Positions 2,742-14,032 of a stretch of DNA of 40,479 nt are shown piece by piece (position 1 is the first letter of the stretch; each line of letters begins with the position of its first letter). This stretch comes from an uncultured Chloroflexota bacterium. Lineage in GTDB: Bacteria; Chloroflexota; Chloroflexia; Thermomicrobiales; UBA6265. The translations under genes and the position numbers were made by a program. The stretch lies in the NCBI GenBank assembly GCA_937870845.1, contig CALMZR010000051.1:1-40479 (forward strand), written 5' to 3'. The notes below the pieces were generated by a model. That model searched no databases. It was not told where the DNA came from and saw only the letters and a program-made list of their open reading frames with translations.

Positions 2742-3284
2742 TCAGCGATTTCCCCTGTACACCTCTGGCAACGACTCCGCCGCTCTGCCGTCCGGCCGAA
2801 AGGCAAGAGCGACTTCTGGCGGAATCCGACGCGGCTTTCCTTGCTCCGAGGTAAACACCCACTCGGTTCTGCCACGGACGACGATCTCTTCCTCGGCGGC
2901 GAGGTCGTGGGCGCCCAGCAGCCGGCCGCCGACAGGGAGTTCCCCCATGGTCTCCGCCACGCGATACACAAGATAGCGCCGCTCGACACGGGCGCCGCGT
3001 GGCTCGCCTAACCAGGTCACGATCCGGAGCACGTCTCCTGCGTACGCCTGTCGCAGGAAGATCACCTCGTGCCGCCGGGCCACGAACACGCCGCCAAGTC
3101 GCCTCAGCCGTTCCAGATCCAGTCCGAGCAGCACGGCGTGGTCGATCGCCGCCTGTTCCAGATAGTTCAGATATGCAGCGTTGTTGACGTGGCCGAGCGC
3201 GTCGACCTCGTGAAAACGAACCCGAATGAACGCTTCGCAGACGTGCACGCCCGCATCCGGAATGAATTCCGGATCGGCCTTCAC
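2742..3284 (-). CDS. 4-hydroxybenzoyl-CoA thioesterase-fold acyl-CoA thioesterase
   Basis: VRFHEVDALGHVNNAAYLNYLEQAAIDHA hot-dog fold signature. Confidence 0.85.
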   Translation of the reverse strand: MKADPEFIPDAGVHVCEAFIRVRFHEVDALGHVNNAAYLNYLEQAAIDHAVLLGLDLERLRRLGGVFVARRHEVIFLRQAYAGDVLRIVTWLGEPRGARVERRYLVYRVAETMGELPVGGRLLGAHDLAAEEEIVVRGRTEWVFTSEQGKPRRIPPEVALAFRPDGRAAESLPEVYRGNR

Positions 3285-5200
3285 GCCGCGGCGCCTGCTC
3301 GTGACGCCGCATCCGACCCGACGGACCCCGCATCGGCCGGCGTCAGCGCCTGGTGGAAAATGCGCCGCAGGATCGCCACCGTCGAGGCATACGTCGAATC
3401 CATCCCGTGGTACGAAAGCCCGCGCGCGCCCAGCGTCTGCGCCCGCGTGTACGGCGTGTCCGACGCGTAGTGGATGATCCCGAGGTCCATTGCCCCCGGC
3501 CGGTGCGTTTGCAGGTTGATCGCCTCCTCCGACGGGTAGCGCCGCAGATACAGATCCTCGTAGAGGGCGTTGAGGTATGGCCCCGCCTCCATCTCGACCA
3601 CGGTGTAGTTCTCGCGATAGAAGAAGTCGAGATACCCCTCGTTCTGGAGGAAGGTGCCTTTCACCGTGACCGCCTTCTGATTGTCGAGTGCGGCGCCGTA
3701 CTCCAGGTACGGCGCCAGATCGGCGTAGCTGAAAGCGTTCTCAAACCAGTAGGTGTTGCCGGAGTGCTCGTCGTACACCACATCGGAGATCATCACGTCC
3801 CCAATCCGGCCGTTCAGCGTCGCGGCCTTGCCCAGGATATACACCCCATGCAGCTCGTCCGTCGTCATGCCAACCTGAGTCATGATGTTGTACGCCGCCA
3901 GACCTAAGGGGTAGTTCACGTTGACGATGAGCGCGTCCGACTGCCGCGGATCAAGGCATACCCCGTCTACGTCGCTCAACCGGGGATCGAAGTGGGCCGG
4001 ATCGAGTTTGGCCAGCTCGATGATCTGGATGCCGACGTCAATCGCCCCGGTCGCGTCAATGTGGTGGATGCCGACAGCCTGCTCCTCGTTGCTCCGCTCG
4101 CGCCGGTCGTCTTCACGGCCAGGACTGGAAAAGTACTGGCGCGCCGCGAAATAGAGCAGGTTCTCCCAATTAGAGCGGCTCGTGCCGGCCTCGAGCCGGA
4201 CCAGCTCCTCCTTCAGCTCGGCGTCGCCGTGGGCGCGAATGAACTCGGTCAGCTCCCGTTTGCGCCGACGCGCTGTTCCGGAGAGCACGTTGACGATCGA
4301 GTGCGTGTTCGAGGACACGAAATAGACCGGCCGTTCGGCGGCGCCCAGCCCGTGCAGCACGCGCTCCGCTGGCAGCCACCACTGATGCGTGGCGCGGGCG
4401 TTGCCGAGGTGGCTGCCTCCGATCATGCGCAGCGTATACCGCTTGCGCTGCCCGGCGATCGCGTCGAGGTTTCGCCACAGAGCGCCGCCCCACACGCTCT
4501 GCAGCCGCTGCCAATCATCCGGTTGCAGCAGCAGTCGCTTGCCGGCGTTGGCAACCTCAGCCGCGTCGAGATCATCCCCGGATGCGGTTCGCTGGATCAG
4601 CGATCGCAGCTCGGGATCGGACTCGATGATCCCGTGCATCTTGTTCCATTCGATCTGATGCGCCACGATCGAGGGTACAAGATCGTCGAGGTCCGACGCC
4701 GAGCCGATCGACGCGGCCAGCGTGCGCTCCCCGTCGAACCGCCATCGCCTCCGCCGGCCCGGCGCGGACACCACGCGCCATGTCTCCATGCCGACGAACC
4801 CGGCGCGCCGGAACCCTCGCGCCGACTGCCCAAGCACGATCTCGGTCACGTCGACGACGCACTCGGGCAGACGCTGAACCGAATAGATGAACGCGTTGAG
4901 ATCTGGTTGTGGTTCATTGGCCCCGGCGTGCAGTGACGACGAGGCCGTCAGATGCGCGGGAACCAGGCTCGACACCGGGATGGCTCCGGAACTTTGCAGC
5001 AGTGTGGTGTAGGTGCGGACGTAAAGGTCGACTTCACGTTTGCCCGGCACGCGCGCCGAGGCGTCGATCGCCGGCGATGCGCTTCGCTCCCCCGGGAAAA
5101 GCCTCCCCTGTTCCGATTCAGTCTCGAGCCCGCGCGTCATGGCCGCAGTATAACCGTGCTTGACCGAGGGACCGGCGCTGCCGGTCGAGCCAAACGACAT
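3281..5200 (-). CDS. Conserved hypothetical protein with nucleoside-phosphorylase-like C-terminal region
   Basis: Long ORF (639 aa; start may be internal, e.g. MTRGLETE). C-terminal segments GKAATLNGRIGDVMISDVVYDEHSG and VVEMEAGPYLNALYE resemble PNP/UDP-family nucleosidases. Confidence 0.75.
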   Translation of the reverse strand: MSFGSTGSAGPSVKHGYTAAMTRGLETESEQGRLFPGERSASPAIDASARVPGKREVDLYVRTYTTLLQSSGAIPVSSLVPAHLTASSSLHAGANEPQPDLNAFIYSVQRLPECVVDVTEIVLGQSARGFRRAGFVGMETWRVVSAPGRRRRWRFDGERTLAASIGSASDLDDLVPSIVAHQIEWNKMHGIIESDPELRSLIQRTASGDDLDAAEVANAGKRLLLQPDDWQRLQSVWGGALWRNLDAIAGQRKRYTLRMIGGSHLGNARATHQWWLPAERVLHGLGAAERPVYFVSSNTHSIVNVLSGTARRRKRELTEFIRAHGDAELKEELVRLEAGTSRSNWENLLYFAARQYFSSPGREDDRRERSNEEQAVGIHHIDATGAIDVGIQIIELAKLDPAHFDPRLSDVDGVCLDPRQSDALIVNVNYPLGLAAYNIMTQVGMTTDELHGVYILGKAATLNGRIGDVMISDVVYDEHSGNTYWFENAFSYADLAPYLEYGAALDNQKAVTVKGTFLQNEGYLDFFYRENYTVVEMEAGPYLNALYEDLYLRRYPSEEAINLQTHRPGAMDLGIIHYASDTPYTRAQTLGARGLSYHGMDSTYASTVAILRRIFHQALTPADAGSVGSDAASRAGAAA

Positions 5201-6272: not shown

Positions 6273-7088
6273 TCACCCCGAATCGCTCGTCGCAGCTCTG
6301 GCGTGGGTCAGCAATTTGCCGGGGTCCACGGCGATCGCATTGCGGCCCAGCGACTTGACGGCCCCATGCTCCTGCAACTCCAGCAGTTTACGCGTCACCG
6401 TCACCCGATTCGAGCCAATCATGTTGGCCAACTGCTGGTGCGTCACCGGTAGTGTGATCGCCGTCAACCCGCCTGCCGCGGGGCGGCCGAACGCCCGCGC
6501 CAACGACACGAGCGTGGTCGCGAGCCGTACCGACGTGTCCCGCGCCAGCAACTGCTCTGCCAGGATCTGCAACTCAGAAAGGCGGCGCGACATGCCGTGC
6601 ACCACCGCCGCCGCCAGCTCCGGCGTGCGACGAATCAGCTCGACCAGGTCGTCAGACTCCACGACGGTGACCGTCGAATCGACGAGTGCTTCGGCAATGC
6701 TGCTGCTGGAGAGGCCATCCGGGTCGATCTCCTGGGTAATGACGTTTCCAGGTCCAAGCAGCCCCAGGTTGATCGAGCGCCCGTCCGGCAGAACCTTGTA
6801 ATGCCGAACACACCCCGATCGCACGATGTAGACGCGATCCAACCCGTGTCCGGGACCGAACAGCTCCTCCGCTCTTCGCAGCGAGACAGTGGAGGTTTTC
6901 GACGCTTCCGACCGGTAACTCCGCGTATCCGGGGCTGGGACGCCGCTGGACATCGTCCGACCCGGAGGTCTCGCCACGGCGGAGGCGGCGACGGCGCCCG
7001 TCGCAGCGCCTTTGCCTCCGGCGTACCACCCTGCCGCGGTGACGGCCAGGGTGCGGGCAGTTGTTCCTTCCCGAGAAGCAAACTTCAT
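6273..7088 (-). CDS. Crp/Fnr-family transcriptional regulator
   Basis: cNMP-like YIVRSGCVRHYKVLPDGRSINLGLLGPG plus HTH LPVTHQQLANMIGSNRVTVTRKLLELQEHGAV. The N-terminal ~60 aa is atypical and the start is uncertain. Confidence 0.85.
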   Translation of the reverse strand: MKFASREGTTARTLAVTAAGWYAGGKGAATGAVAASAVARPPGRTMSSGVPAPDTRSYRSEASKTSTVSLRRAEELFGPGHGLDRVYIVRSGCVRHYKVLPDGRSINLGLLGPGNVITQEIDPDGLSSSSIAEALVDSTVTVVESDDLVELIRRTPELAAAVVHGMSRRLSELQILAEQLLARDTSVRLATTLVSLARAFGRPAAGGLTAITLPVTHQQLANMIGSNRVTVTRKLLELQEHGAVKSLGRNAIAVDPGKLLTHARAATSDSG

Positions 7089-7386: not shown

Positions 7387-8670
7387 TCAACCGGCTCCGC
7401 ACCAATCGGCCGTGAACGTCGCGGTGATCGCCGCTGCGGCGACCAGATCATCCAGGAAAATCGCCTCGTCAGGCGCATGCGCCAACCGAACGTCTCCTGC
7501 CCCGAACATCACGCACGGCATGCCGCCGACCAATACGAAGTGACGCATGTCGGCGCCGTACGTCACCGCTTCGATGGCGGGCTCGGCCCTCCGCACGCGC
7601 CGCCACGCCGCGCTCAGGGTATGCACGAGTGGGGATTCGACGGCCACCTCGGCTGGGGCGAAATGCCCATCCCGCCATTCGATCCGTGGTCGGTGCTCAC
7701 GCAGCCACGGGTCCGCGTCGGCCAGCCTCGCCACCTCGTCCGAGAGCGCGCGCTTCATCCCGGCCAGAGATTCGCCGGGCACAAGTCCCGCCCGGCCCTC
7801 GGCCTCCAGCCACTCAGGCACCGAGGACGGCCAAGCTCCACCGCGCACCGTCCCGATGTTGATGGGCGCCTTGTTCACCATGCCGTCATACAGCGGGTGC
7901 GCAATTTCGCCGTTGTGGCGCGCCTCGAACTCGAGGAGTCCGCGATGCAGGTAGGCGAACTTCTCGATTGCGCTCACTCCCTCGTCCCGCACACACGCGT
8001 GCGCTGAGAGACCAGGCACCACCAACCGAAACATCAGTGAGCCGCCCTGCGCCACCACGATCGCGAGATTCGTCGGCTCCGATATCAGGGCGGCGTCGGC
8101 TACATAGCCGCGCAACACCGCGGCCAGCGCCCCGGCGCCGCCATCTTCCTCCGAGATCGTGCTCTGCACGATCACGTCGCCGGCTGGCTCGATCCCTGCC
8201 TCCCGCAGGACGCGCACGGCGAACAGGTTCGCGATCACCCCGCCCTTCATGTCGCACGCGCCACGGCCGTAAAGCCGGCCGTCGACCACGTCCCCGCCGA
8301 GCGGATCGCGCCTCCAGGCGCCTCGATCGCCGATCTCTACCGTGTCGATATGCCCATTGAGTATGAGGGATCGCCCGCCGCCGCTGCCCCGGTAGACTCC
8401 GACAACGTTCGGCCTCCCGGCGAATCCGGACCCCAGCGTGACCGACTCGGCATGCGGCGCCAGCGTCGCCGCATCCGGCTCCCAGACGTCGACATCGAGG
8501 CCATGGTCGCGCATCAAGCGTGCGACCGCCTCCTGGACCAACCCCTCTTCCCCGGTCTGGCTCGGGATTTGCACAAGTTCCTTTAGTGCGGCGACCATCG
8601 CCGGTCGCAGTGCTTCCGCCGCGCCCCGAATCGCCATATCGCGCCGATCGCCTCCCTCCCTGCCGCTCAT
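7387..8670 (-). CDS. M20 family peptidase (ArgE/DapE/ACY1 type)
   Basis: LILNGHIDTVEIGD...LYGRGACDMKGGVIANLFAVRVL...SEEDGGAGALAAV. The ORF track runs to 8766; start probably near MSGREGGDRRD. Confidence 0.88.
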   Translation of the reverse strand: MSGREGGDRRDMAIRGAAEALRPAMVAALKELVQIPSQTGEEGLVQEAVARLMRDHGLDVDVWEPDAATLAPHAESVTLGSGFAGRPNVVGVYRGSGGGRSLILNGHIDTVEIGDRGAWRRDPLGGDVVDGRLYGRGACDMKGGVIANLFAVRVLREAGIEPAGDVIVQSTISEEDGGAGALAAVLRGYVADAALISEPTNLAIVVAQGGSLMFRLVVPGLSAHACVRDEGVSAIEKFAYLHRGLLEFEARHNGEIAHPLYDGMVNKAPINIGTVRGGAWPSSVPEWLEAEGRAGLVPGESLAGMKRALSDEVARLADADPWLREHRPRIEWRDGHFAPAEVAVESPLVHTLSAAWRRVRRAEPAIEAVTYGADMRHFVLVGGMPCVMFGAGDVRLAHAPDEAIFLDDLVAAAAITATFTADWCGAG

Positions 8671-9263
8671 GGCGCGGTCCCCCCCGTCGGATCGGCATGT
8701 GCGACGGCGGATGTAGACAGCCCCACCAGTTCCGCCCGCATTCCGTCGCCGGCATACCGCGCCCACAGCTTGCGAAATCGATCGTACGCCGCTCGCCGCT
8801 CGGCGTGCTCACGGCCAAGAAGGGCAATCAGCCCCCGGCGCGGGTCGTCCGGCGGCGGCCGCAGCGCCGCCGTGGCAATCTCGACCAACGCAGCCGGTGA
8901 GGCTTCCGCGATCTCCTGCCGGGTTTGCCGGCTCTGCTCGACCATCACCCGCGATAGCTCGTCGCCGATCAGCGCGATCCGCACGTCGCGGTCGTGCAGC
9001 GCGCCGAGCGCCTCCTGGATCGCTTTGACCCGGTCGATCTGCCGATCCCCCGCCTCGCCGAACTGAGGCCGAAACAACTCCAGCGTGTAGCGAAGGCGTT
9101 TGGCGGAAATCCGCAGATCGTGCAACGCCTCCGATAGCTCGGGATGCGGCACGACGGGAGCATAGGAGTAGTATTCCGCGATTCGCACCGCCAGCACTTT
9201 GCGCGCGTTCTCGGCCACGCTTGCTTCGGGATCGACGTCTTCGACCGGCCACGCCCGGCTCAT
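8667..9263 (-). CDS. CHAD domain protein (second half of a CHAD domain)
   Basis: LSEALHDLRISAKRLRYTLELFRPQF...KAIQEALGALHDRDVRIALI. Starts with an ATGA overlap with the upstream gene. Confidence 0.82.
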   Translation of the reverse strand: MSRAWPVEDVDPEASVAENARKVLAVRIAEYYSYAPVVPHPELSEALHDLRISAKRLRYTLELFRPQFGEAGDRQIDRVKAIQEALGALHDRDVRIALIGDELSRVMVEQSRQTRQEIAEASPAALVEIATAALRPPPDDPRRGLIALLGREHAERRAAYDRFRKLWARYAGDGMRAELVGLSTSAVAHADPTGGTAP

Positions 9264-10765
9264 GCAGTCGCCCCCGCCATTCCGGCTGCCGGTTTCGGGC
9301 GCCGCGCCCCCGATGCAAACCGATGCTCGACCTCTTGCCGTACCGGCCCTGCGAGCAGATCCTCAAGAAACGCTTCCATCTCCCCTCGCGCCGCCACGCG
9401 TTCCCGCTCCAGCCGGTCGATGAGCCGATCGATCCCTGGGTGCTCGACCACCGGTGCGGAGGCGCGGTCCGCCCGGATCGCATCGAGCAACACGTCGCGG
9501 TCGCGGACCTCGCCCAGTGCGCGGGTGATCTCCTTCGCGGTCCGATGCAGCGCCCTGTACCACGGCTTCGGAAACACCGGGGCGGCGATGTCCATCGCCG
9601 CCCGCAGCCGCCGCGACGCGACACGCACGTCATGGACGCCTTCGATGTCCTCGCCCTCGAGGGCAACCGGGATCGCCGCCCAGACGGCGTCCCATCGCGC
9701 GGCGATGAGGGCCTTCATCGTCTCCCGAAAATCGTCCTCGTCGACCGCGAGGCCGTCGGAATCTGCGTTGGGTTGCCTCGTTGGTTTCTCCGTGCTGTTC
9801 CGGCGTCGCCTCGTTTCGGCGTGACGACCCGGACTGCCGCCGGCAATGGCTGACTCCTGCAGCGCATCGAGGAGCAACCCACCGCGCAGCCCGCTGTGGG
9901 CGATCTTGATCGCCTCCGGCGTCACCAGCCCGGCCACCGCGGCGACGATGGCCACCCCTGCCGGCAAGACCTTGGCGCGCGCCTTCGGAACGGCGATCCG
10001 CTCCGCCAGGTTCGCCGCGGTGAGACTGGTCATCATCGCCAGTGCGTCTCGGAGGGCCGGGAGATTGGCAGATCGTCCATCAGGCAACAATCGCATCAAG
10101 TACTCGCCCGTGCCCCCGACGAGCACCAACTGGCTCACCCCATCAGCCGGCAAGTCCAGAGATGGCAGGGCCGCGGCAACCACCCGCGCCGCCTCTTCCT
10201 CACATGCGGCCAACTCCACGATATCCGGCGGGTCGGCGTGAACGAACCGCTCCGTCAGCGCCCCAGAGCCCAGTGAGAGCGAGCGCGCCGCGCCCATCGC
10301 CCCGTCGTGGGTCGCGATCAGCTCCGTGCTGCCGCCGCCGATGTCGGCGATAAGCGCCGATCCGCTGAGGTCCAATTCCGACGCGAGGCCGCGAAAGGTC
10401 AGCATCGCTTCCTCGTCTCCGTCGATGACGCGAACGTCTATCCCGGCCTCTTCCTGAACGCGATCGAGGAAGGCATCGCTATTCACCGCCGACCGAGTCG
10501 CCTCGGTCGCCACCGCGACGATAGTCGTCGCCCCGAGTCCTCGCGCTTGCGCCGCAAAGCGGCGCAACGTCTCGATCGCCGCTTCAATTCGGCGCTCGTC
10601 GAGGCGACCGGACGCCGCCACACCCTCCCCGAGCCGCACCACCTCCGACGCCCAAGCGAGTTGCTCAATTCCGCCGTGCCCGTTCGCGCGGCCGATGGTC
10701 ATTTTGATCGAGTTCGAGCCGATGTCGATTGCCGCGGCGAGCAACTCCCCCGCATCTCTATTCAC
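9260..10765 (-). CDS. Ppx/GppA exopolyphosphatase with C-terminal half CHAD domain
   Basis: AAIDIGSNSIKMTIGR...TEATRSAVNSDAFL...LIADIGGGSTELIA, then IEGVHDVRVASRRLRAAMDIAAPVFPKPW...ITRALGEVRDRDVLLDAI. Confidence 0.9.
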   Translation of the reverse strand: MNRDAGELLAAAIDIGSNSIKMTIGRANGHGGIEQLAWASEVVRLGEGVAASGRLDERRIEAAIETLRRFAAQARGLGATTIVAVATEATRSAVNSDAFLDRVQEEAGIDVRVIDGDEEAMLTFRGLASELDLSGSALIADIGGGSTELIATHDGAMGAARSLSLGSGALTERFVHADPPDIVELAACEEEAARVVAAALPSLDLPADGVSQLVLVGGTGEYLMRLLPDGRSANLPALRDALAMMTSLTAANLAERIAVPKARAKVLPAGVAIVAAVAGLVTPEAIKIAHSGLRGGLLLDALQESAIAGGSPGRHAETRRRRNSTEKPTRQPNADSDGLAVDEDDFRETMKALIAARWDAVWAAIPVALEGEDIEGVHDVRVASRRLRAAMDIAAPVFPKPWYRALHRTAKEITRALGEVRDRDVLLDAIRADRASAPVVEHPGIDRLIDRLERERVAARGEMEAFLEDLLAGPVRQEVEHRFASGARRPKPAAGMAGATA

Positions 10766-10900: not shown

Positions 10901-11173
10901 ATGACGGTGGAACACGGCGAGGCGAGCGCCCTGGGACGAGCGGCCGAGCTCCTGAACGAGGGGGCTGAAGCCGAGCTGCGCCTGCTCAAGCGCGAGCGCA
11001 AGGCGGAGCGCCTCCTCGCCGAAGCACGAGCGGCGCTGGCGGAAGACCAAAAACGTCTGGAGCGGGCCAGAAAGCGCGTCGCCTATAGCGCGGCGGCGGT
11101 TGCTGAAGCCGAAACTCGGTTGAGTGAAGCTCAGGCCGCGCGAGCCGCAGGCCCGCGACCCGCTCAGGATTGA
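10901..11173 (+). CDS. Small coiled-coil hypothetical protein
   Basis: MTVEHGEASALGRAAELLNEGAEAELRLLKRERKAERLLAEARAALAEDQKRLERARKRV...; heptad-like, divergent from ppx. Confidence 0.5.
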   Translation: MTVEHGEASALGRAAELLNEGAEAELRLLKRERKAERLLAEARAALAEDQKRLERARKRVAYSAAAVAEAETRLSEAQAARAAGPRPAQD

Positions 11174-12786
11174 CCCACGCCGGCCTCGCGGGCCGCGAGA
11201 CGATCTGTTGCGGCCCAGAATCGGTCCATCAGCGCCGCGTGCTCGCCGGCGGCCATCCGCCGCGGCTGGTGGAACTCCTCGATCTCAACTCCGTGGAAGC
11301 GAAGGGCCGCAATCTTCGTCCCGTGCAGCACGATCTCCAGGGCATACCCCGAGCGCACTTCCGCCGCCCACATCTGGTCGAGAATGAAGTTGCCGGGCGA
11401 GTAGACGATCGGCTTGCCCGCGTAGACCTCCATGCCCTGGATCAGATGCGGGTGGTTCGTGACCACCATCGCCGCGCCGGCGTCGATAGCCATGTGCGCC
11501 GTCTGCACCGCCCACGGCGGCGGCGCAGCGACGTACTCCGCCCCAAGGTGGAAATACGGGATCACCACATCCGCGGCCTCGGACGCCGCCGCGATGTCGG
11601 CCGCGATCTGGGATGCCAGATAGGGGTTTGTCCCGGCTCGATCGGCCGTGGCGCTCACGTCCACGTCGAGCACCCCGGTCTCCGCCCCCGGCTCCACTTC
11701 GGAGTTTGCGGTCACGGCGTCGATGCCGAGCAACGCGATCCGTACGTCTCCAGCCTCGACCACCCACGGCGCCCGCGCAACATCGATCGTCTCTCCCGCC
11801 CCGAAGTACGGGATGCCCGCCCCGTCCAGCGCGGCGATGGTGTCGAGCAGCCCCTGCACGCCCCACCCTTCGTCGTTCCACGTCGAGTGGTTGTTCGCCA
11901 ACGTCACCGCGTCGATTCCGGCCAGGGCAAACCCCTCCAGCATTGCCGGGCTCGAAACGAACGTTACCGAATGGGGATCGGCAGGCTGCGGCAACGAGTC
12001 CGACAGATTCCCTTCCAGATTCGCCACCGTCACGTCGAAGGCGCTCAGCAACGGGGCAATCCGCCGAAATGGCCGGGTGTAATCGCCGTACCGTTGCATG
12101 TGCAAATGCACATTCCGCCCAGGCACGATGTCCCCAACGACTCCGACCCGTACGGGTTCTACGCCCTCGATTGGCGCGAGGACGGGATCAGCCTCGCCCA
12201 CCGCCAAGGTCTGTACCCGGAAATCGATAAGCTCGATGGGAACAAGAGCAACGGCGCCGGGATCGACGGCGATCGCCGCTGCCAGAGCCTCGTAGCTTTC
12301 GAACGTCTGCTCCGCCTGAATCCCGCTCGCCGTAGAGCCTGCGAGCGCCAATGGCCGCACAGGGTAGCGCGTCGGCGAACCGAGCTCTTTCCAGTTTGCG
12401 ATCTTTCCGGAGACCAGGCGCCAGGGATCGTCCGACCCGACGGCGAGCAGCGGCAGCCGCGGTGAAGCCGCCAGCGCCATCCCCTCTGGCAACCCCGAGT
12501 TCGGCAAGGCGCGCGCCGCCTCGGCAACCGGGGTCGAGGCCGGCAGGAGGACTGGTGCAGGTGATGCCGACGGCGTCGCGGCGGCGGGCGCCTGCGGCGT
12601 GTCAACGGCGGACGGCGCCATGGCGCTTCCCGGCGCCTGTGCCTGCCGCGAGACTTGCAGCGCGAGCGAGCCGGCGGCGCCCGCCGCCGCGGCGACGACC
12701 GGCACGGCCCCCAGCACGACTTCCCGCCGGGTGAATCGGCGGACTCGTCGCGACCGCGAGTCAGACCCCGATGCCGCCTCAGTCAC
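11164..12786 (-). CDS. CapA-type poly-gamma-glutamate synthesis/metallophosphatase protein with N-terminal PBP-like region
   Basis: VGVVGDIVPGRNV...FDVTVANLEGNLSD...GIDAVTLANNHSTWNDEGWGVQGLLDT...VVTNHPHLIQGMEVYAGKPIVYSPGNFI. GTG start overlapping the upstream stop. N-terminal basic/TM region RRVRRFTRREVVLGAVPVVAAAAGAAGSL. Confidence 0.85.
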   Translation of the reverse strand: MTEAASGSDSRSRRVRRFTRREVVLGAVPVVAAAAGAAGSLALQVSRQAQAPGSAMAPSAVDTPQAPAAATPSASPAPVLLPASTPVAEAARALPNSGLPEGMALAASPRLPLLAVGSDDPWRLVSGKIANWKELGSPTRYPVRPLALAGSTASGIQAEQTFESYEALAAAIAVDPGAVALVPIELIDFRVQTLAVGEADPVLAPIEGVEPVRVGVVGDIVPGRNVHLHMQRYGDYTRPFRRIAPLLSAFDVTVANLEGNLSDSLPQPADPHSVTFVSSPAMLEGFALAGIDAVTLANNHSTWNDEGWGVQGLLDTIAALDGAGIPYFGAGETIDVARAPWVVEAGDVRIALLGIDAVTANSEVEPGAETGVLDVDVSATADRAGTNPYLASQIAADIAAASEAADVVIPYFHLGAEYVAAPPPWAVQTAHMAIDAGAAMVVTNHPHLIQGMEVYAGKPIVYSPGNFILDQMWAAEVRSGYALEIVLHGTKIAALRFHGVEIEEFHQPRRMAAGEHAALMDRFWAATDRLAAREAGVGQS

Positions 12787-14032
12787 GACTCGGAACCACT
12801 GGCGTCGCCGATCGGCCGATTTCAGGCGGATAGTAGTCGGCGAAGTAATCCACGATGGCGTTCTCGTACGCCGTGACGATCGCGTTCCGCCCCTCGGCAC
12901 TGGAGAGGACGGCGGCATCGCCGTCGTTGGAGACGAACAGCGCCTCGACGATCGCCCCCGGCATCTGGCTGGGCTCGACCACCCCAGGCACCGCTGGCCC
13001 CGTCATAATGAAGTTGCGAAACATGGAGTACTCCTTCTGCACGTCGGCCGTCGTGTCTGGGAGTACCCCGCGTTCCTCCTCGGTCGGCAGGACGTAGCCG
13101 ATAAAGCCCAGTTGCTCTTTGAGATGAGCGTACGCCAGGCTCGCGAACCTGACGTTGCGGTCACCGAACTCTCGCTCCCGCGTGTACCAAGTCTCATACC
13201 CGCGCGGGTTCCCGTTTGAGAACCCGTTGACGTGCATCGAGACCAGCAGGTCGGCGCTGGCGCCGTTGCACACATTGATGCGCGCTTGCAGCTCGTCGAG
13301 GTTCTTGTTGCGGCTTGACCGCGGCGCGTCGTGCGCCGCCGTCCGCCCGTCCCCATTGACGTCGGCCCCGTCCAGATTGACCGCCGCATCCGTCTGCCGT
13401 GTCATCACGACGTCGTAGCCGCGCCGCTGCAACCGCTCCTTTAGATCCCAGGCGTGCTCCAGCGTCAGCATCGCCTCCTCCATCGCGGGTACGCCATCCG
13501 GCAAGAATCGCTGAAAACCCCGGTCATACCCGCCGTGCCCCGGATCGAGGCAGACCACCGGCGCCCGCGCGAACGATGCAGGCAATGGAATGGGCGTTTC
13601 GGCCGCCGCATCCGCCTCCGGCGGCGGAGCCATGCCCAATGGCTCCGCCGCCGGGACTTGCGGCGCCATGGCTTCGACCTGAGCGCCGCCCGTCGGCTCC
13701 TCCACCCGCCCGAACAACCGGCCGCCAGCAAAAGCAAGCACCGTCAATCCCACGATCAGGAGCGCGCCGGCGAGTGTCATCCCCGGCGAGCGCACCTGCG
13801 ATTCTTGGCGCGTCTTGGGCATCTTCGGCGCGGGTTTTGACGTGCCGTTGTGCGAGGCTCCACCATTTGCGCGTGACTCGCGGCGGGCGCGGTACGCGCG
13901 CCGCTCGGCCCCGGACAGGGTTCGCCCGTTGCCAAACTCCGGCCCACGCTGCGACCTGGACGACGCGGCCGCCCGCGGTTCCGTGCTGCCTCGGTTCGCG
14001 AGCTCCCTGCCCAGCTCTCCCATCCCCGCCAC
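12779..14032 (-). CDS. N-acetylmuramoyl-L-alanine amidase (Amidase_3), membrane-anchored
   Basis: VVCLDPGHGGYDRGFQ...EEAMLTLEHAWDLKERLQRRGYDVVMTR...LLVSMHVNGFSNG...IVEALFVSNDGDA. Confidence 0.88.
   Translation of the reverse strand: MAGMGELGRELANRGSTEPRAAASSRSQRGPEFGNGRTLSGAERRAYRARRESRANGGASHNGTSKPAPKMPKTRQESQVRSPGMTLAGALLIVGLTVLAFAGGRLFGRVEEPTGGAQVEAMAPQVPAAEPLGMAPPPEADAAAETPIPLPASFARAPVVCLDPGHGGYDRGFQRFLPDGVPAMEEAMLTLEHAWDLKERLQRRGYDVVMTRQTDAAVNLDGADVNGDGRTAAHDAPRSSRNKNLDELQARINVCNGASADLLVSMHVNGFSNGNPRGYETWYTREREFGDRNVRFASLAYAHLKEQLGFIGYVLPTEEERGVLPDTTADVQKEYSMFRNFIMTGPAVPGVVEPSQMPGAIVEALFVSNDGDAAVLSSAEGRNAIVTAYENAIVDYFADYYPPEIGRSATPVVPSRD

Follow-up and report, generated by a model that had tools for sequence, protein, structure and literature searches.

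A CHAD domain divided between two overlapping genes, the first of them fused to a Ppx/GppA phosphatase domain, in an uncultured Chloroflexota bacterium

CHAD domains are among the best-defined polyphosphate (polyP)-binding modules. The solved structures consist of two four-helix bundles around a twofold axis, and these two lobes superimpose on one another (PMC6537752). In CtCHAD of C. tepidum, which is a homodimer in solution, mutating His253, Arg256, Arg260, Arg296 and Arg418/Tyr419 of the central site cut polyP binding, and the tripolyphosphatase activity of E. coli YgiF is raised by its CHAD domain (PMC6537752). Short gene overlaps are enriched among subunits of heteromeric complexes, 30.4% versus 6.8% in E. 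coli (PMC10666635). In the open-access literature searched, no description of a split CHAD domain was found.

The stretch of DNA analysed here (the window; 40,479 nucleotides) comes from an uncultured Chloroflexota bacterium and carries the following features.

9260-10765, minus strand: Ppx-CHAD-N gene, a short Ppx/GppA phosphatase domain plus the CHAD N-lobe (Pfam, AlphaFold2, top fold match 1t6c)
9263-9739, minus strand: CHAD N-lobe part of that gene, with equivalents of CtCHAD His253, Arg256, Arg260 and Arg296
9260-9263, minus strand: ATGA stop/start overlap of the two lobe genes
9264-9283, minus strand: Shine-Dalgarno-like stretch ggaatggcgggggcgactgc (duplex -8.6 kcal/mol) within the end of Ppx-CHAD-N, just 5′ of the CHAD-C start
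8667-9263, minus strand: CHAD-C gene, the C-lobe, with equivalents of CtCHAD Arg418/Tyr419 (Pfam, alignment, AlphaFold2, PDB matches)
7387-8670, minus strand: M20 peptidase gene, next in the operon, with an ATGA overlap with the CHAD-C stop

The original prediction held that a CHAD domain is split over two overlapping genes, the first fused to Ppx/GppA, and the Pfam coverage bears this out. The upstream ORF (501 aa, GTG start) matches the Ppx/GppA family profile PF02541 over residues 30-303 with 175.8 bits (cut-off 27) and positions 2-137 of the CHAD profile PF05235 with 87.2 bits; the downstream ORF (198 aa) matches CHAD positions 142-226 with 66.4 bits. Both CHAD scores lie above the curated cut-off of 25.6 bits, and the two ORFs cover complementary parts of the profile. 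The 4-nt ATGA overlap was found as predicted, with the TGA stop of Ppx-CHAD-N at 9260-9262 and the ATG start of CHAD-C, in a different frame, at 9261-9263. A CHAD domain is defined by both four-helix lobes in one chain, and neither product alone is a complete CHAD. Judged by its profile match, the Ppx-CHAD-N product is a member of the Ppx/GppA family; its exact substrate is not assured, because the score for the NCBIfam exopolyphosphatase model TIGR03706 (216.9 bits) falls below the curated cut-off of 307. Profile searches of the window's genome, a Thermomicrobiales-type draft of 418 contigs (the order being taken from near relatives), found no CHAD besides the two halves and no second Ppx/GppA; one PPK1 is present.

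The CHAD-C stop and the M20 peptidase start likewise share an ATGA, at 8667-8670. Few kinds of operon junction are commoner than the ATGA overlap. Since the M20 start has one too, the overlap by itself is nothing out of the ordinary for an operon; its peculiarity is its position between the two lobes of a single domain, and its conservation there. The M20 peptidase, for which the start at 8670 is likelier than that of a longer GTG ORF at 8766, probably has no part in polyP function. The operon is flanked by genes for a Crp-family regulator (6273-7088) and a capsule-synthesis-like PGA_cap protein (11164-12918), both of which also lie near the operon in several relatives of family f1.

Alignment to CtCHAD identifies the N-half as the first lobe and the C-half as the second. 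The equivalents of His253, Arg256, Arg260 and Arg296 fall in the N-half and those of Arg418/Tyr419 in the C-half, and the HxxR motifs and polyP-contact residues of CHAD are retained in split halves. All six central-site residues are kept in 72/72 split pairs, a figure in which Arg418/Tyr419 are conserved by construction at loci L061-L140, which were collected by a pattern containing them, and which is free of this bias for the N-half residues and for Pfam-collected loci. An alignment of 21 C-halves has 19 invariant columns, the polyP residues included, an invariant start Met (GTG and TTG starts being read as Met) and a variable C-lobe tail. Autonomous folding is predicted for both lobes: AlphaFold2 gives CHAD-C alone a mean pLDDT of 93 and models Ppx-CHAD-N as a confident Ppx domain (1-307), a disordered linker (307-340) and a helical bundle (342-482). 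The top fold match of the latter model is Aquifex Ppx 1t6c; the CHAD structures 6qva and 6qv7 are the top PDB matches of the CHAD-C model, but with weak Foldseek E-values (best 0.026). Of the earlier description of two matching halves, each half a bundle, the first part stands and the second does not, in that each product is a whole helical lobe and a CHAD is two lobes. The distances of N-halves and C-halves correlate (r 0.77-0.90), as those of linked genes would regardless.

In 60 relatives from the order, families f1, f2 and f5 show the CHAD match in two neighbouring pieces, whereas it is undivided in f4 and in a single f3 genome; the remaining orders of the class have almost exclusively one-piece matches. 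The split position is identical in the CHAD-bearing genomes of f1, f2 and f5, apart from one f1 genome (G023), where the two halves share a reading frame at the end of a contig, so that the one-chain form may exist even in f1. Comparison of the junction in related loci, as had been suggested, showed [AG]TGA to be kept in 17/17 readable f1 genomes. At the next junction, between CHAD-C and the gene after it, just 5 of these 17 have an ATGA overlap, so the N/C overlap is the more strictly conserved of the two. Family f2 has an overlap of 8 nt (14 in one genome) with another frame relation than in f1, and in f5 the two genes do not overlap. Ppx lies directly upstream of CHAD-N in f1 and f5, the order Ppx, CHAD-N, CHAD-C being conserved. 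Within f1, Ppx is fused to CHAD-N in G000, G001 and G003 only; in the congener G002 the two are separate genes with an 8-nt overlap. The 4-nt N/C overlap, present in 17/17 f1 genomes, falls within the range expected of termination-reinitiation pairs (-8 to +10 nt), and Shine-Dalgarno strength before CHAD-C starts is -6.9 kcal/mol versus -2.9 at control positions (p about 3e-17, the relatives not being independent).

The split also occurs well beyond the order. A scan of public genomes found it in Ktedonobacter racemifer and other Ktedonobacter and Thermogemmatispora species, isolates among them, and in Chthonomonas, another Armatimonadota genome, Eremiobacterota and Bryobacterales/Solibacter (Acidobacteriota). 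In a sample of the phylum, families f23, f27, f30 and f47 are split (in f30, 26 of the 28 CHAD-bearing genomes by match tables), and the loci fetched from these four families were confirmed as split at ORF level, except one with a C-half only. A Ppx-CHAD-N fusion followed by a separate CHAD-C is standard in Ktedonobacteria and is found in f23 and f47 as well, the first ORF being of Ppx-CHAD-N size or shown as Ppx-CHAD-N. In these three groups Ppx domain III (PF21447, HD-like) is a gene of its own adjoining CHAD-C (locus L175, 1166-1861, minus strand; it follows CHAD-C also in L078-L089 and several of L171-L190), an arrangement that resembles a dismantled full PPX. In some genomes the halves are not contiguous. 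In the Chloroflexota genome G230 (L175), a DinB-family gene on the opposite strand (2755-3315, plus) lies between Ppx-CHAD-N and CHAD-C. In the acidobacterial genomes G628, G629 and G630, the N-half (L228, L230, L231) follows a Ppx gene, while the C-half (L111, L114, L117) is on another contig after an esterase-like gene; in G628 the gene next after the N-half is a different one, not the C-half. Because the halves are unlinked in these three, tight coupling is not essential everywhere. The majority of sampled acidobacteria have one-chain CHADs. In no genome examined was one half found together with evidence that the other is absent.

That the gene is truly split is close to certain, as the recurrence of the split in many related and some distant bacteria marks a real two-part protein rather than a sequencing error. 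The window comes from a many-contig draft and a one-chain Ppx-CHAD is known in Thermosporothrix, so an indel from sequencing or assembly, or recent pseudogene formation, might have broken a one-chain gene; the chance of this is negligible, since three congeners and another 13 members of the family share the split, as do isolate genomes of Ktedonobacter and Thermogemmatispora, and the start Met, Shine-Dalgarno sequence and polyP residues are conserved. Independent assemblies and isolates thus rule it out. A relative with a continuous Ppx-CHAD ORF, which the original prediction had linked to such an indel, does exist in Thermosporothrix (L100), yet it lies among split relatives and gives no pointer to an indel in the window. 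Programmed frameshifting or readthrough yielding one continuous CHAD chain is also very unlikely. In its favour, the ORFs overlap in different frames in most lineages, and in some Thermogemmatispora only a single stop separates halves that share a frame. Programmed frameshifting, however, entails a constant frame relation, and all of frames 0, 1 and 2 occur, by lineage: in 67 split loci, a few with atypical starts set automatically, the C-half, with the frame of the N-half as reference, is in frame 2 (35), 1 (28) or 0 (4), and the two overlap by 4, 8, 14, 7 or 1 nt or are separated by small gaps. CHAD-C moreover has its own conserved start and Shine-Dalgarno sequence, an opposite-strand gene interrupts the halves in G230, and in G628-G630 they lie on different contigs. 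Variable frames together with interrupted and unlinked halves rule this candidate out, and they count, with the 17/17 junctions, against the programmed or accidental frameshift once proposed for the window.

Set beside the observed gene structure, homology, conservation of the split and polyP residues in both halves, the reading that we consider probable is that of two translationally coupled subunits which assemble, by pairing in trans, a two-lobe polyP-binding module on an exopolyphosphatase. The Ppx-CHAD-N product would be an exopolyphosphatase to which a flexible linker attaches the N-lobe, and the CHAD-C product the C-lobe alone, both made from one mRNA by termination-reinitiation at the ATGA with its Shine-Dalgarno sequence, presumably in balanced amounts. 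The lobes would pair as in one-chain CHADs and so endow the C-terminal end of the exopolyphosphatase with a basic polyP site composed from both, and this site could hold or recruit long polyP chains and so tether polyP to the phosphatase. The split in isolates of other classes, the 17/17 junctions and the unlinked halves all fit the earlier proposal of an exopolyphosphatase with one CHAD half that takes the other from the next gene. The lobes might also self-associate, by analogy with the homodimer that CtCHAD forms. They could even act apart, Ppx-CHAD-N and CHAD-C each binding polyP singly or as homodimers, with CHAD-C for example a granule protein. Separate folding of each lobe is predicted, the lobes of known CHADs superimpose (PMC6537752), and the halves are unlinked in G628-G630; nevertheless, separate action appears unlikely, given that adjacency and overlap are conserved in most lineages, that the polyP residues make up one composite site in CtCHAD and that no genome was found with one half where the other can be excluded. 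Highly improbable is a third possibility, that the N-lobe is sufficient by itself and CHAD-C a relic in decay: the variable C-lobe tail speaks for it at most indirectly, and against it stand the 19 invariant columns, including polyP residues, in 21 C-halves and the retention of CHAD-C in isolates and several phyla.

Joint alignment of the halves with one-chain CHADs misplaced N-halves and was replaced by an alignment of full-length rows. On a 124-row tree of joined lobes, 8 changes between split and one-chain forms are needed, at least 3 of them on well-supported branches. In Thermosporothrix hazakensis (L100), what the window encodes in two genes is joined in a continuous Ppx-CHAD ORF of 658 aa; a careful subtree nests this species within split Ktedonobacteria (99/97), which suggests that its one-chain form is a re-fusion, but grouping all split rows in a single clade is not rejected by an AU test (p 0.39). 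A chain-start motif, MAKA..V.GL, is common to C-halves (at CHAD-C gene starts near 4001 in L078 and L082, for example), stand-alone N-halves and some one-chain CHADs, and scores highly in 0/52 one-chain inter-lobe linkers; a rank test on the motif has no overall significance, the high-score counts alone differing. With the motif at starts and without high scores in linkers, the halves may behave as tandem paralogues. The further idea that the one-lobe, two-gene CHAD is an old, persistent heterodimer of such paralogues, predating or reverting from the one-chain domain, is doubtful at present; if it holds, separate lobes would let cells regulate how polyP reaches the exopolyphosphatase, through the provision or replacement of one of them.

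A natural split of this kind, in which the exopolyphosphatase carries one lobe and would receive its partner in trans, offers a clean handle on the role of CHAD in polyP breakdown, as either lobe can be removed or mixed separately. It also shows that a domain with twofold symmetry can occur as a pair of subunits and switch between one gene and two, and labelling both products "CHAD domain protein" would mask the two-part module.

Compared with solved CHADs such as CtCHAD (6qv7/6qva) and YgiF, the window pair has the same lobes, HxxR motifs and polyP-contact residues, but distributes over two gene products the lobes that those proteins carry on one chain. The window Ppx shares the whole catalytic fold, at 28% identity, with the short Ppx/GppA of Aquifex (1t6c/2j4r), to which it adds a CHAD lobe on a linker; the C-terminal domains that full-length E. 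coli PPX has are absent from it. T. hazakensis has the same domains in the same order, with both CHAD lobes in its single ORF. CYTH/TTM-CHAD proteins (YgiF) likewise combine a polyP-acting enzyme with CHAD, but differ in enzyme fold and consist of one chain. Finally, translationally coupled pairs that use termination-reinitiation have a short overlap and a Shine-Dalgarno sequence as the window pair does (PMC6728339, PMC10666635); unlike those pairs, the two genes of the window encode the two lobes of what is otherwise one domain.
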